Shown here piece by piece: positions 14,971 through 50,614 of a stretch of DNA of 53,606 nt. The notes below the pieces were generated by a model. That model ran no database searches and was not told the origin of the DNA. It saw only the letters and a program-made list of their open reading frames with translations. Positions within the stretch are counted from its first letter, which is position 1. Each line of letters begins with the position of its first letter. Source of the DNA: Bacteroidales bacterium (GTDB lineage: Bacteria; Bacteroidota; Bacteroidia; Bacteroidales; UBA12170); assembly GCA_016933745.1 (NCBI GenBank), contig JAFGAK010000107.1, positions 1 to 53,606 of the forward strand, given 5' to 3'. Made by a program: the position numbers and the translations under genes.

Positions 14971-15868
14971 CGAAGAAGTTCTTCACGCCACAGAAAACGA
15001 AATCTCCATTGTAGCGTTAGAATCGACGATCATTTCGCATGGAATGCCTTACCCGAAAAACGTAGAAACAGCCATGCGTTGCGAAGCAATTGTACGCGAA
15101 AACGGAAGTGTTCCGGCAACTATTGCCATTCTAAACGGCAAGTTAAAAGTTGGACTTTCGAAAGATGAGTTAAACTATTTAGGAAAAACAGGAACTCAAA
15201 TTGTTAAAACTTCTAGAAGAGATATTGCTGTTAATGTTGCAAATAAAATTGATGGAGCAACTACGGTTTCTGCAACCATGTATATTGCAAGTTTGGCCGG
15301 CATAAAAGTTTTTGCAACCGGCGGAATTGGAGGCGTACACCGCGGAGCAGAAACCAGTTTTGATATTTCTGCCGATCTAGAAGAACTTGCAATCACCAAT
15401 GTGCTTGTGGTTTGTGCAGGTATCAAATCAATTTTGGATTTAGGCCTAACTATGGAATATTTAGAAACAAAAGGCGTTCCTGTAATTGGTTACCAAACAA
15501 AAAAATTGCCTGCATTTTACAGCAGAACCTCTGATTTTAACGTGAATTTCCAAATTGACACGCCCAAAGAAATTGCCAATGTGCTAAAAACGAAATTAGC
15601 ACTTTCGCTAAATGGTGGAATGTTAGTAACGAACCCGATTCCTGAAGAGTATTCGTTGGAGAACGAATTCATCAACAAAGCGATTGACCAAGCATTACTC
15701 GAAATGGATCAATTGGGAATTAAAGGCAAAGAACAAACACCCTATTTACTAGGAAAAGTAGTTGAACTTACTGATGGAAAATCCTTAGAATCGAATATTG
15801 CCTTGGTTTATAATAATTGTCAACTAGCAAGTAAAATTAGTGCCGAGTTGAATGCTTTAACTGATTAA
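14948..15868 (+). CDS. psuG: Pseudouridine-5'-phosphate glycosidase
   Basis: A 306-residue protein with the family hallmarks ALESTIISHGMPYP near the N-terminus, GTQIVKTSRRDI, and the glycine-rich FATGGIGGVHRGAE with the following SFDISADL. The enzyme splits the C-C glycosidic bond of pseudouridine 5'-phosphate to give uracil and ribose 5-phosphate. It overlaps psuK by 23 nt, indicating coupled translation. Full length for the family, no missing motif seen. Its stop lies only 3 bp from the stop of the convergent fucose-isomerase-like gene. Confidence 0.95.
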   Translation: MNKYIEFNEEVLHATENEISIVALESTIISHGMPYPKNVETAMRCEAIVRENGSVPATIAILNGKLKVGLSKDELNYLGKTGTQIVKTSRRDIAVNVANKIDGATTVSATMYIASLAGIKVFATGGIGGVHRGAETSFDISADLEELAITNVLVVCAGIKSILDLGLTMEYLETKGVPVIGYQTKKLPAFYSRTSDFNVNFQIDTPKEIANVLKTKLALSLNGGMLVTNPIPEEYSLENEFINKAIDQALLEMDQLGIKGKEQTPYLLGKVVELTDGKSLESNIALVYNNCQLASKISAELNALTD

Positions 15869-15871
15869 ATC

Positions 15872-17032
15872 TTAAACAACTCGTTTAACTTGCAATTGAT
15901 CCATCATTCGCTCAACAAGGGGAATGAAGGCTGCCGGAAAAATTAAATGGTGATTCCCCAACGCTTTGTTTTTTAATAATTTAGCTTGATCTTTTGTTGT
16001 TGCAAATTCAATCTGGGTACGACAAGCAAAGGAATGTCTTGGTGTTTCGGTTACTTCGCCCTCTATTAACATATATTGATCTAAAGTAGCATTTATGCGA
16101 AAAGCACCCACTTTTCCTCTTTTAAAAGCTCCTTGAATGGCTGTGCCTACATTGGTTTCGAAATGAGTTGTAATACTAAAGGATGAAAGTAAGTTGAGCG
16201 GCGCCGTGCAATGTGCAAATAGAATCTGACTTTCTTTGATTTCTGCTACGTTGGCTTGCCAAGGAATTATTTGAGTAAGTGATCTGATAATCATTTTACC
16301 AATTAGACTGCAAATATCGCCTTCGCAAGCAGCAACGACATTCCTTTTATTTAAAACCGCCAACGGCAAACAAGCAGTTACTCGATCTCTTTTCACCATC
16401 GAAAAACATTCCACGCTAATTGCTGAAAGCTTGTGCTCTTTAATCACTTCATCTAATAAGGAATATACTTTAGCGCTATGCTGCAAAGGTTTTGGATCAA
16501 AATCAGAAAAGTGCTTCAAAAATTCTTCGGAAGAAGTTTTTGTATTATAATCGCCTAAATCATTCCACGGCAATCGCTCTAAATCAACTCCCAACTTTGA
16601 TTTGATAAGTTGATCCTCGATATCCGAATTGATTAACCAATCCGAAACTTCGCCGATTAAAGCTGCTTTTTGCGAATACAAACTCGCTATGGCCTTATTT
16701 ACTTGGATTATTTCTTTAAAATCCGAATTCGCATTGGGCGCAAATACATCAATAAAGGACACTCGCACTTCTTTATTTCTTAAAAAAGAAGCTATTTCCA
16801 TTGCTGCCGCGAAGGAATTATTTTCTCGGTGACAAAGCAAAATTACGTCTTTTTGATTTTGTACATTTTCGATTGCAAAGTTTTCCGAACCTCCACTTGC
16901 AATAAATAAAACCGATGCATTTTGATCGAAATCATAGCTATCATCCGCAAAGAAATCATTCAATATAGCAACTGAACGCTCTTTAATTGTTTTATCCTCG
17001 CAACAAGCAAAATAGGCTATCGTGTATTCCAT
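15872..17032 (-). CDS. L-fucose/L-arabinose isomerase-like protein
   Basis: A 386-residue protein. The N-terminal half (about 1-130) has an alternating Rossmann-like pattern. The C-terminal half (about 180-380) carries the signatures of the fucose isomerase-like C-terminal family: AISVECFSM, TACLPLAVLN, ACEGDICS and FAHCTAPLNL. The acidic and His residues in these stretches would bind a divalent metal. Substrate is unknown; the family includes many uncharacterised members in Bacteroidota. It faces psuK-psuG and ends 3 bp from psuG, so it is not in that operon, although both could act in sugar salvage. A terminator upstream (17128-17153) separates it from the porin gene. Confidence 0.72.
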   Translation of the reverse strand: MEYTIAYFACCEDKTIKERSVAILNDFFADDSYDFDQNASVLFIASGGSENFAIENVQNQKDVILLCHRENNSFAAAMEIASFLRNKEVRVSFIDVFAPNANSDFKEIIQVNKAIASLYSQKAALIGEVSDWLINSDIEDQLIKSKLGVDLERLPWNDLGDYNTKTSSEEFLKHFSDFDPKPLQHSAKVYSLLDEVIKEHKLSAISVECFSMVKRDRVTACLPLAVLNKRNVVAACEGDICSLIGKMIIRSLTQIIPWQANVAEIKESQILFAHCTAPLNLLSSFSITTHFETNVGTAIQGAFKRGKVGAFRINATLDQYMLIEGEVTETPRHSFACRTQIEFATTKDQAKLLKNKALGNHHLIFPAAFIPLVERMMDQLQVKRVV

Positions 17033-41275: not shown

Positions 41276-41953
41276 ATGAATATTCAATCTCAAAATTTAT
41301 TTAATAACCTGATTAACAAAGGAGTACTAAAGCAAAAAGTTTATACTAACACTTTAGAATCGATGCGCTTGTTTAAAAATGAAGTTCTCAAGCTAAAAGA
41401 TGAATACGATAAAATAGCCCAAGACGATCAAGTTGTATTTGAATTTACTGATCGGGGCGATTTTGAATTTGAATTGCAGTTTGCCGGCGACATTCTTGTT
41501 TTTTTGATGCACAGCAATGTTTTTGAAATTCCAAGACACGATGCAATACTTAACACAAGCTATTTAAAAGCCGATAAAACCCGATCGTATTGTGGTATCA
41601 TTCATATTTATAATTTTTTAGCAGATTCCTTTAAATACGATCGTGATAATGATTTAGGCTATTTGATAGGGCGGATTTTTGTGAATCACGAAATGCACTT
41701 CCATATAGAGGGGAAAAAAGAGATTGGCATGATTTACAATAATTTTGAACAGTCGGTTTTAAATGAGGAATCAGCGAGAGAAATTGTTTCTTCAGCAATT
41801 GTCTATACAATCAATTTTGATCTTCTTGTGCCGCCTTTCGAAGCCGTCAAAATGGTAAGTGTATTTGATATCAGAAAACATACGCAAAGTTTGTCTTTAC
41901 GCACCGCCAAACGTTTGGGCTATAAATATCAAGCAGATTCCAAAAACGAATAA
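41276..41953 (+). CDS. Conserved hypothetical protein of Bacteroidota type
   Basis: I do not recognise a characterised family. The 225-residue soluble protein has no signal peptide or membrane segment. An N-terminal helix region (about 1-50) is followed by an alternating strand pattern rich in aromatic and acidic residues (VVFEFTDRGDFEFELQFAGD, ILVFLMHSNVFEIP), then GYLIGRIFVNHEMHFHIEG and a helical C-terminus ending FDIRKHTQSLSLRTAKRLGYKYQ. A motif such as NHEMHFHIEGK could be a ligand or metal site, but this is speculation. Gene-like composition and uninterrupted length make it a real gene. Confidence 0.75.
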   Translation: MNIQSQNLFNNLINKGVLKQKVYTNTLESMRLFKNEVLKLKDEYDKIAQDDQVVFEFTDRGDFEFELQFAGDILVFLMHSNVFEIPRHDAILNTSYLKADKTRSYCGIIHIYNFLADSFKYDRDNDLGYLIGRIFVNHEMHFHIEGKKEIGMIYNNFEQSVLNEESAREIVSSAIVYTINFDLLVPPFEAVKMVSVFDIRKHTQSLSLRTAKRLGYKYQADSKNE

Positions 41954-42540: not shown

Positions 42541-42548
42541 TATATTTG
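42541..42548 (+). promoter_or_regulatory. -7 box of the lysC-lysA transcript
   Basis: TATATTTG matches TAnnTTTG; transcription would start near 42555, almost at the leader-peptide ATG. Confidence 0.6.
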
Positions 42549-42556
42549 CAGCCGAA

Positions 42557-42622
42557 ATGAAAAAAATGATAAAACATAGCAAACATATGAAGGCGATTGG
42601 AAACAACCGTGGTTTGTTATAG
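42557..42622 (+). CDS. Lys/Met-rich leader peptide upstream of lysC
   Basis: A 21-codon frame from ATG 42557 to TAG 42620-42622. It starts MKKMIKHSKHMK and contains five Lys and three Met (one the initiator) within the first 12 residues; the end reads NNRGLL. It lies between the lysC promoter and a strong terminator that precedes lysC. Lysine and methionine are end products of the aspartate pathway that lysC begins, so ribosome stalling at these codons could control read-through. The peptide would be nearly leaderless. Expression is not proven. Confidence 0.55.
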   Translation: MKKMIKHSKHMKAIGNNRGLL

Positions 42623-42680
42623 TAGGATATAAAACACTAAATAAAACGCCCGGTTGAACAGCTCAATCGGGCGTTTTTTT
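42602..42680 (+). promoter_or_regulatory. Probable transcription attenuator of lysC-lysA
   Basis: Three elements are visible. (1) A hairpin AACAACC-GT-GGTTTGTT at 42602-42618 with one bulged base. (2) CAACCG at 42604-42609, complementary to CGGTTG at 42651-42656 in the 5' arm of the terminator, a possible antiterminator. (3) The terminator itself. CAACCG lies inside leader codons 16-18, so a ribosome at the end of the peptide would mask it and favour termination. Confidence 0.5.
42645..42680 (+). terminator. Strong intrinsic terminator in the lysC leader
   Basis: A 13-bp stem AACGCCCGGTTGA / TCAATCGGGCGTT (one G-T pair), loop ACAGC, ending in seven T (42674-42680). It lies 16 bp upstream of the lysC start, so it must be bypassed for lysC to be expressed from the upstream promoter. 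Confidence 0.93.
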
Positions 42681-42696
42681 AATACATTAACTAAAG

Positions 42697-44022
42697 ATGA
42701 TTGTACAAAAATTTGGAGGAACTTCGGTAGGAAATGCGGATCGGATTAAAAACCTCCTCAACCTGATTCAAACAGACAAACCAAATATAGTTGTTCTTTC
42801 CGCAGTAAGCGGAACCACGAATAAACTGGTTGAAATAACTGAAAACCTGTATCAGCAAGATAAAAATGCAGCATGCCAAAACATGGAAGCTTTGCAAAAA
42901 GAGTATTTTCAGCTTGTGGATGAGCTCTACGATACGGAAAATAAAAAAAGTGAAGCGATTGAATTAGTAAAAGCTCATTTTACCTACTTAAAACGATTTA
43001 CAGAAAGAGTATTTACCATTCTTCAAGAAAAAGCCGTTTTGGCGCAAGGCGAATTACTTAGTACAGCTTTATTCCAAGGACTTTTAGAAGAAAGATCTAT
43101 CAATTCCGTATTGCTTCCTGCCTTGGATTTTATGCGAATTGATAAAAATCTCGATCCGGATGAATATTATATCAAAGAAAACCTAAACCGTATTCTAAAA
43201 AATAACGCCAACACCAAATTATTTGTAACTCAAGGATATATTTGCAGAAATGCCTATGGCGAAATAGATAACCTCAAAAGAGGCGGGAGCGATTATACAG
43301 CATCTCTGATCGGTCAAGCAATTCAAGCAGAAGAAATTCAAATCTGGACGGACATCGACGGATTGCATAACAACGATCCTCGCTATGTAAAAAACACACA
43401 ACCCGTAGCAAATCTCTCTTTCGAAGAAGCGGCGGAATTGGCCTATTATGGTGCTAAAATTCTTCATCCATCGAGTATATTACCAGCTAAAAAAGCAGAT
43501 ATTCCCGTTCGATTAAAAAACAGCCTGAACCCAAATCGGCCCGGAACAATCATCCAAAATAGTACTCCAATTCCAGGGATCAAAGCTATTGCCGCAAAAG
43601 ACAATATCACGGTAGTGCGAATTAAATCCGACCGAATGTTGTTTGCTTATGGATTTTTAAGAAAAGTGTTTGAAGTATTCGAGATTTACAAAACACCGAT
43701 TGATATGATTACTACTTCGGAAGTTGCTGTATCGATGAGCATTGACGATACCACGCATTTGAATGATATTATGATCGACTTGAAAAAATTTGGTCAAGTT
43801 GAAATAACACCAAATCAAGTGATTATTGCCATGGTAGGTTATATTCCTCACTCTGAAAAAGGATATGCTTCGAAAGTTTTTGATGCATTGCTTCCTGTTC
43901 CAATCCACATGATTTCTTACGGAGCTAGCAATCACAATATCTCTTTAATCATCGACCAAAATAATAAATTGGAAGCTTTGAATGCACTTCATTTAAAACT
44001 CTACAGAAACAACGAAGCATGA
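42697..44022 (+). CDS. lysC: Aspartate kinase (monofunctional, with ACT domains)
   Basis: A 441-residue kinase. Catalytic signatures are VQKFGGTSVGNADRI near the start, VTQGYICRNAYGEI, LKRGGSDYTASLIGQA and WTDIDGLHNNDPR. Two ACT domains follow (about 300-440: ITVVRIKSDRML and VIIAMVGYIPHS), typical sites of lysine or threonine feedback. It makes aspartyl phosphate, the first step to lysine, methionine, threonine and meso-diaminopimelate. It overlaps lysA by 4 nt. The upstream terminator and leader peptide point to attenuation. Confidence 0.95.
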   Translation: MIVQKFGGTSVGNADRIKNLLNLIQTDKPNIVVLSAVSGTTNKLVEITENLYQQDKNAACQNMEALQKEYFQLVDELYDTENKKSEAIELVKAHFTYLKRFTERVFTILQEKAVLAQGELLSTALFQGLLEERSINSVLLPALDFMRIDKNLDPDEYYIKENLNRILKNNANTKLFVTQGYICRNAYGEIDNLKRGGSDYTASLIGQAIQAEEIQIWTDIDGLHNNDPRYVKNTQPVANLSFEEAAELAYYGAKILHPSSILPAKKADIPVRLKNSLNPNRPGTIIQNSTPIPGIKAIAAKDNITVVRIKSDRMLFAYGFLRKVFEVFEIYKTPIDMITTSEVAVSMSIDDTTHLNDIMIDLKKFGQVEITPNQVIIAMVGYIPHSEKGYASKVFDALLPVPIHMISYGASNHNISLIIDQNNKLEALNALHLKLYRNNEA

Positions 44023-45161
44023 AAAACAAAGTAGACTTTACGAACATTAAAACGCCGGCTTATCTCTACAATATTTCATTGTTAGAGCAAACGCTAAATT
44101 CCATACAAAAACTAGCTAATCAATACAAATACCACGTTCATTATGCATTAAAAGCAAATAACAACCCTCGAATTTTACAAACAATTTCCGGGTTTGGTTT
44201 TGGCGCTGATTGTGTGAGTGGAAATGAAATAAAAGAAGCTATTAAACAAGGATTTAAAACGTCGCAAATTGCTTTTGCAGGTGTTGGAAAGACCGACGAA
44301 GAAATTAACTATGCGCTTGAACAAGAAATCTTTAGTTTTAATTGCGAATCCTTGCCTGAGATTGAAGTGATTAATGAGCTCGCACAGAAAATGCAAAAAA
44401 CGGCATCGCTAGCCTTACGTATTAATCCGAATGTGGATGCAAATACGCACAAATACATCACCACTGGATTAGAAGAAAATAAATTCGGCATTAATCTTTG
44501 GGACATTGATTCTATTTTGGATGCAATGGAAGGAATGCAAAATGTGAAGCTAACTGGAATTCATTTTCATATTGGCTCACAAATAACCGATCTCGACACT
44601 TTCAAAAACCTCTCCAATAGAATCAATCAGATCCAAGAGAAACTCTATGCTCGACAGCTAATTGTGGATCACATTAATGTTGGTGGTGGTTTGGGAATTA
44701 ATTACCACCAGCCCGACGAAGATCCTATTCCTGATTTCGAGTCTTACTTTAAAATTTTCCACGATTTTCTGGAATTAAGACCTAAACAACAATTGCATTT
44801 TGAATTGGGACGTTCGATTGTTGGACAAATGGGAAGCTTATTGAGCAAGGTTATTTATGTAAAAAAAGCAAGCAAGAAAGATTTCTTAATCATTGATGCT
44901 GCCATGACTGATTTAATTCGCCCGGCTCTTTATCAAGCTTATCATAAAATAGAGAACTTAAGTTCAACTTGTGAGGAAAAACAAAATTACGATGTGGTTG
45001 GTCCGGTTTGTGAATCGGCTGATATATTTGCCAAAGCAGTTTCGCTCCCAAAAAGTCAGCGTGGAGATTATATCTTAATTCGATCGGCTGGAGCCTACGG
45101 ACAAGTCATGTCGTCGAATTACAACATGAGAGACAACGCGCAAGTTGTTTTCGTTGACTAA
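44019..45161 (+). CDS. lysA: Diaminopimelate decarboxylase
   Basis: A 380-residue fold-type III PLP enzyme. YHVHYALKANNNP carries the PLP lysine (Lys45). GIHFHIGSQI, NVGGGLGINY and the C-terminal GPVCESADIFAK (active-site Cys) are family motifs, with YGQVMSSNYN at the end. It converts meso-diaminopimelate to lysine in the cytoplasm. The ATG overlaps the lysC stop by 4 nt, so both enzymes are made together. Pairing of the first and last lysine-pathway enzymes supports lysine-specific control. Confidence 0.96.
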   Translation: MKNKVDFTNIKTPAYLYNISLLEQTLNSIQKLANQYKYHVHYALKANNNPRILQTISGFGFGADCVSGNEIKEAIKQGFKTSQIAFAGVGKTDEEINYALEQEIFSFNCESLPEIEVINELAQKMQKTASLALRINPNVDANTHKYITTGLEENKFGINLWDIDSILDAMEGMQNVKLTGIHFHIGSQITDLDTFKNLSNRINQIQEKLYARQLIVDHINVGGGLGINYHQPDEDPIPDFESYFKIFHDFLELRPKQQLHFELGRSIVGQMGSLLSKVIYVKKASKKDFLIIDAAMTDLIRPALYQAYHKIENLSSTCEEKQNYDVVGPVCESADIFAKAVSLPKSQRGDYILIRSAGAYGQVMSSNYNMRDNAQVVFVD

Positions 45162-50469: not shown

Positions 50470-50479
50470 CAACGATAAT

Positions 50480-50560
50480 TCACAATAGGGGTGCCTTAAT
50501 ATTACGGGCTGAGAACATACTCTTTAAACCTGACACGGGTAATGCCGACGTAGGGAAAAA
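50480..50560 (+). ncRNA. TPP (thiamine) riboswitch
   Basis: The THI-element signatures are in order: GGGGTGCC (50488-50495), CTGAGA (50509-50514), ACCTGA (50528-50533) and GGGTAATGCCGACGTAGGG (50537-50555), with the short variable arm between them. This is the conserved pyrimidine- and diphosphate-binding core. No T-rich terminator follows before the start codon, so control is more likely at translation (inference). It precedes the TonB-dependent receptor gene. Confidence 0.96.
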
Positions 50561-50614
50561 AGACTTCATTTGATCGTTTTCTCTCTATTGATTTTTAATT
50601 TAAAAAGTCAAAAG

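Follow-up and report, generated by a model that had tools for sequence, protein, structure and literature searches.

The lysC-lysA operon in a 53,606-nucleotide stretch of Bacteroidales DNA (the window; from a MAG of 2.45 Mb in 368 contigs) is preceded by an element that we consider very likely to be a ribosome-mediated transcription attenuator sensing charged tRNA-Lys. The basis from sequence is conservation, pairing potential and geometry, from which we infer the transcription start, translation, stalling and read-through. Such a mechanism would be classical; its amino acid specificity and operon appear new as far as we could find. An earlier note on this DNA had read the region as peptide-based attenuation, and this proposal gains support from a leader frame and Lys codons conserved in six species of the genus as well as from different-looking versions before lysC in other Bacteroidota. 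The features of the locus are the following:

42541..42548, plus strand: -7 promoter box TATATTTG of the Bacteroidota TAnnTTTG type, recognized from the sequence
42557..42622, plus strand: leader peptide ORF MKKMIKHSKHMKAIGNNRGLL with its stop, 21 codons, ATG at 42557 and TAG at 42620-42622, recognized from the sequence
42576..42583, plus strand: strand 1, ATAGCAAA, within the Lys codon region and partner of strand 2, from pairing in six species
42604..42615, plus strand: putative antiterminator 5' segment CAACCGTGGTTT, leader codons 16.7-20.3, directly before the stop codon
42613..42620, plus strand: strand 2, of the TTTGTTAT type, at the leader end and partner of strand 1, from folding and six-species pairing
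42643..42680, plus strand: predicted intrinsic terminator, arms 42643-42657 and 42663-42677, from folding and six-species pairing
42645..42656, plus strand: putative antiterminator 3' segment, also most of the terminator 5' arm, from the six-species register
42697..44022, plus strand: lysC, aspartokinase of 441 aa, with its ATG 16 bp past the T run
44019..45161, plus strand: lysA, diaminopimelate decarboxylase, with a 4-bp overlap with lysC

The interval from promoter to terminator spans approximately 130 nt and is mostly filled by the leader ORF, whose Lys codons lie at 42560-42565, 42572-42574, 42581-42583 and 42590-42592 (codons 2, 3, 6, 9 and 12) and whose Met residues are at codons 1, 4 and 11. 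The promoter box, the 21-codon leader with five Lys and three Met in its first 12 residues, and the distance from the T run (ending at 42680) to the lysC ATG (42697) are all as the earlier note had described them. It had likewise correctly placed seven T (42674-42680) at the terminator; the stem, given there as 13 bp, in fact comprises 15 pairs including one G-U. No clear -33 box is present at the usual spacing from the window promoter box. A longer leader starting from an upstream TTG was rejected, as its start would fall inside the promoter box.

The region from leader to terminator has a predicted folding energy of -33.6 kcal/mol versus -18.1 for shuffled sequences (z -5.5), a difference mostly due to the terminator. 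Nine terminators were detected in the window, and this one has the most GC pairs; the other eight are each 3' of a same-strand gene or tRNA, and the lysC terminator alone is not. We rejected the possibility that it terminates an upstream gene: the closest gene on that side is divergent (42466-42176, minus strand), and on the plus strand the last gene before it ends at 41953. With the left-hand gene being divergent, the terminator can act only on transcripts entering lysC. Across six congeneric species 92.2% of the cells of the terminator stem are paired in a single register, with three pairs showing double-sided changes, and slid registers fare worse.

A scan of 11 genomes of the genus with an RNA model of the element recovered it in six of the eight genomes with a close lysC (LysC 76-100% identical), the complete element being found once per genome and always 5' of lysC. 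The two remaining congeners (G295 and G296; lysC upstream L036), where LysC is 57-59% identical, gave no leader/terminator element, which points to either loss of the element or replacement of the operon. The other three genomes (G199, G298 and G301) have no close lysC; G301 lacks a match to the LysA-type decarboxylase family and the other two have distant ones only, and it is possible that these organisms are lysine auxotrophs or use another lysine route. No leader with terminator was seen in those upstream regions of dapA and of the other two aspartokinases that were read.

In the DNA alignment of the six species the promoter box, the leader start and the TTGTTAT at the leader end are invariant, and the distance from box to ATG is 8-9 nt in all, suggesting a nearly leaderless leader mRNA. 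The leader in the genus is of the type MKKxKKYNKQKK, in which Lys6 and Lys9 are invariant even as codon 9 swaps between AAA and AAG. Differences over codons 1-12 number 10, 37 and 49 at codon positions 1, 2 and 3, respectively. The conservation of frame and Lys codons is what an alignment of relatives, proposed as a check in the earlier note, had been meant to examine. The Lys richness of the window leader on its own (5 Lys in 12 codons, p 0.07 versus shuffles) is at most suggestive because the DNA is A-rich, and gains strength only once relatives are compared.

The second pairing on which the proposal depends is that between the leader end and the terminator 5' arm. The earlier note had located its core, CAACCG (42604-42609), and regarded an antiterminator of only 6 bp as a weak point; the pairing is in fact longer, being extended by GG:CC and U:A pairs to a duplex of -13.5 kcal/mol (p 0.036 versus shuffles), or -14.4 kcal/mol as a hairpin in the nascent RNA. 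The window version has mismatches and is the second weakest among the six species, and the relative L040 has a perfect 12-bp antiterminator. In a single register, 80.6% of the cells are paired in the six species as against 31-60% in slid registers. As with the terminator, three pairs show double-sided changes, so that both competing stems display covariation of the kind the earlier note had suggested looking for; the antiterminator count was reached in 35 of 500 shuffles, a modest control given six related sequences, and we take these changes as support for the predicted antiterminator and not as proof of it. The combined p values for the pairing of leader end and terminator arm versus shuffles are 7e-8 for the genus, 4e-7 for nine other loci and 6e-4 for 15 Hymenobacteraceae, though with related rows these are not strict probabilities. 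By the same shuffle measure the antiterminator is not significant in Ancylomarina, one Flavobacteriales locus and two other loci. A further stem joins the Lys codon region to the leader end and has 95.8% of its cells paired in the six species (slid controls 33-60%), with one-sided changes only and no double-sided ones; it probably serves as the classical 1:2 hairpin.

We also folded the nascent RNA not occupied by the ribosome, at the stage when the terminator 3' arm has yet to be transcribed. With the ribosome on the Lys codons the window RNA folds the antiterminator (-14.4 kcal/mol), but a ribosome at the stop codon prevents it from forming (-0.4 kcal/mol). Most other lineages show the same contrast, Ancylomarina excepted; in part this contrast is built in, because less RNA always folds less. 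In nearly all lineages the antiterminator segment is at the leader end or across its stop codon, with the Lys codons upstream. A conserved, in-frame short ORF with cognate codons lies between promoter and terminator, and an intrinsic terminator precedes the first structural gene. By pairing potential and geometry, antiterminator and terminator would exclude each other; a ribosome at the stop codon would mask the antiterminator, and one stalled on the cognate codons would leave it exposed.

These observations suggest the following course of events. Going by the promoter box, RNA polymerase would start a few bases 5' of the leader ATG, and the nearly leaderless leader would be translated at once. 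When lysine is sufficient, the ribosome would reach the stop codon at 42620 and cover the antiterminator segment (codons 17-20), allowing the 15-bp terminator to form. When lysine is short, it would stall on one of the Lys codons (2-12), leaving the antiterminator segment free to pair with the newly synthesized terminator 5' arm before the 3' arm exists, and transcription would continue into lysC-lysA.

Comparable arrangements were found in lysC upstream regions collected from the window's order, from the phylum and from GTDB genome contigs. A Lys-codon leader with a terminator 5' of lysC is present in Ancylomarina (KQIKHNKHY), in the Bacteroidales MAG locus L046 and in CG2_30_33_31 (L053, KKSNRRFKKFCL), G018 (L140), G132, G184/G080, G234/G024 and G089 of the same order, so that several families besides the window's own are represented. 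In Flavobacteriales, Avrilella and its relatives have the leaders IKKQKKS, LKKAKKQ and LKKGKKQ with a terminator 5' of lysC. In the GC-rich DNA of Hymenobacteraceae, 33 of 37 loci have a Lys-rich leader (ending in KKSKKRNPT), a predicted antiterminator GACCGTCGC and a terminator arm GCGCCGGTC. Most relatives with a checkable flank retain the gene order lysC-lysA (Bacteroidales, Hymenobacter and Avrilella). A large majority of the sampled lysC upstream regions have no such terminator, indicating that the device is patchy. Among 57 distinct upstream regions, selected by the presence of a terminator irrespective of Lys content, Lys ranks first in enrichment among the 20 residues (mean Z 2.73; p<0.05 in 34), and Met is second (mean Z 1.89), a value inflated because every leader ORF has an ATG by definition. 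The 28 regions outside Hymenobacteraceae give a weaker signal (Lys Z 1.15, Met Z 1.20), since A-rich DNA yields Lys by chance and some of the terminators belong to upstream genes. Four lysC leaders from two other families (L165, L166, L167 and L168 in G184, G080, G234 and G024) combine a high content of Met, Thr and Lys with antiterminators of 7-10 bp that are strong in three of the four; these leaders may jointly sense several amino acids of the aspartate family.

A weak RNA-model match led us to metY, which in G295, G296, G297, G300 and the window's own assembly is preceded by two tandem Met-rich leaders, each with a terminator (loci L294, L295, L296 and L266, and L297 on the own-genome contig G000:C366, where metY occupies 15402-16355 on the minus strand). 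Examples are MKKQNTMMRSMMMCEEIPAKSTRV and MKQNTLIRNIQMMRMHWMMQMMRWYYLD, and MKIIMANTMMMNMFMMMYMMMQHMLRYCLK in G295, each followed by a stop codon. Between the end of the second leader and the loop side of its terminator there is a pairing of 9-13 bp, which shows compensatory changes. The tandem leaders are probably a double methionine attenuator, and their presence in the same genome suggests that amino-acid-specific leader attenuation is probably used in this lineage.

The lysC leader might sense methionine, or several of the aspartate-family amino acids (Lys, Met, Thr, Ile), and not lysine alone, which we regard as unlikely. The earlier note had left the choice between lysine and methionine open. 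The window leader has two internal Met, LysC also supplies the routes to Met and Thr, and Met stands beside Lys and Thr in L165-L168 and second in the overall enrichment. However, within the genus codon 4 reads M/T/M/N/M/M and the Met at codon 11 is likewise variable, as against the invariant Lys6 and Lys9; we accordingly rejected Met as a conserved signal in the genus, although it may matter in the two other families. Furthermore, the downstream partner lysA makes lysine only, and metY has Met leaders of its own.

Less probable still is that the ribosome is slowed by the A-richness of the Lys codons or by the positive charge of the nascent chain and not by a lysine shortage, with read-through being fixed or dependent on growth rate. 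Pausing and sliding on poly-lysine/poly-A are documented (PMC4363877, PMC9207662), and Hymenobacter leaders carry Arg alongside Lys (KKRKGAKRVKH). Nevertheless, Arg shows no overall enrichment (mean Z 0.12 in the 57 regions), the Lys codons of the genus are interrupted (KKYNKQKK), and the element sits on lysine genes while metY of the same genomes has uncharged Met runs. Slightly less probable again is that the terminator acts as a constitutive brake or is governed by another factor (Rho, a protein or an sRNA) with the reading frame incidental to it: Lys-rich frames arise easily in A-rich DNA, as the p value of the window leader illustrates, and leader translation is itself deduced, but the leader frame, the Lys codons and the pairing of leader end with terminator persist across several lineages whose sequences differ.

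Lysine riboswitches control the aspartokinase gene lysC in other phyla, but the chance of such an element or another metabolite-binding RNA here is negligible, as the approximately 130 nt from promoter to terminator are mostly leader ORF and neither the window region nor 18 related loci have an Rfam match at the gathering score. Consistent with the earlier note, no lysine riboswitch (RF00168) appears in the window region even among weak matches at a permissive Rfam threshold, and neither a lysine nor a SAM riboswitch has Rfam support there or in the related loci. The Rfam scans of the window and of the related loci gave no match to Bacteroid-trp (RF01692). The best sub-threshold match is the His operon leader (His_leader, RF00514; 42571-42682) at 30.2 bits against a gathering score of 49, and with only two His in the leader, which are not enriched, we do not assign the element to that family. 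Elsewhere in the window, the Rfam scan detected a TPP riboswitch aptamer at 50477-50573, just 5' of an ORF starting at 50570.

Leader-peptide attenuators are textbook cases for Trp, His, Thr, Leu, Ilv and Phe, mostly in Proteobacteria. The proteobacterial his, trp and thr attenuators (RF00514 His_leader, RF00513 Trp_leader, RF00506 Thr_leader) resemble the lysC element in having a leader ORF with end-product codons, alternative stems and an intrinsic terminator ahead of the operon. The window element differs from them in amino acid (Lys), operon (lysC-lysA) and phylum, and in its leader ATG lying just 8-9 nt past the -7 box; no sequence homology is claimed. The Bacteroid-trp RNA, reportedly interpreted as a Trp leader attenuator, is a precedent within the phylum, with Trp there and Lys in the window. 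It was described as a cis-regulatory RNA 5' of amino acid genes in Bacteroidetes (Weinberg et al., 2010; PMC2864571). According to a passage in PMC4833913, attenuation was proposed for the leader of Lactococcus lactis lysQ (Lopatovskaya et al., 2010), which like the window element precedes a gene named for lysine; however, lysQ is a Firmicutes permease gene whose product has altered substrate specificity according to that passage, unlike lysC-lysA. The lysine riboswitch RF00168, which controls lysC in, for instance, Shewanella (PMC2659441), differs in binding lysine directly. According to a 2010 survey, leader peptides had until then been known only from Proteobacteria and Actinobacteria, to which it added Firmicutes (PMC2965389). 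Work on B. thetaiotaomicron pointed to short ORFs within long 5' UTRs as possible leader peptides (PMC7366714). In the open-access literature, a scope that could miss older subscription papers, we found no earlier report of a lysine leader peptide.

Taken together, we lean toward the view that control of the aspartate family in Bacteroidota is exerted partly by leader peptides and is split by end product, with lysine leaders on lysC-lysA in Bacteroidales/Marinilabiliales, Flavobacteriales and Hymenobacteraceae, tandem methionine leaders on metY, and lysine and methionine riboswitches seemingly absent from these genes. Lysine would then extend the list of amino acids served by leader-peptide attenuators, and its leaders occur in culturable organisms such as Hymenobacter, Ancylomarina and Avrilella. 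The many short ORFs in the long 5' UTRs of Bacteroidota would thereby gain a testable role, and the element would offer a natural lysine-responsive expression part for the phylum.
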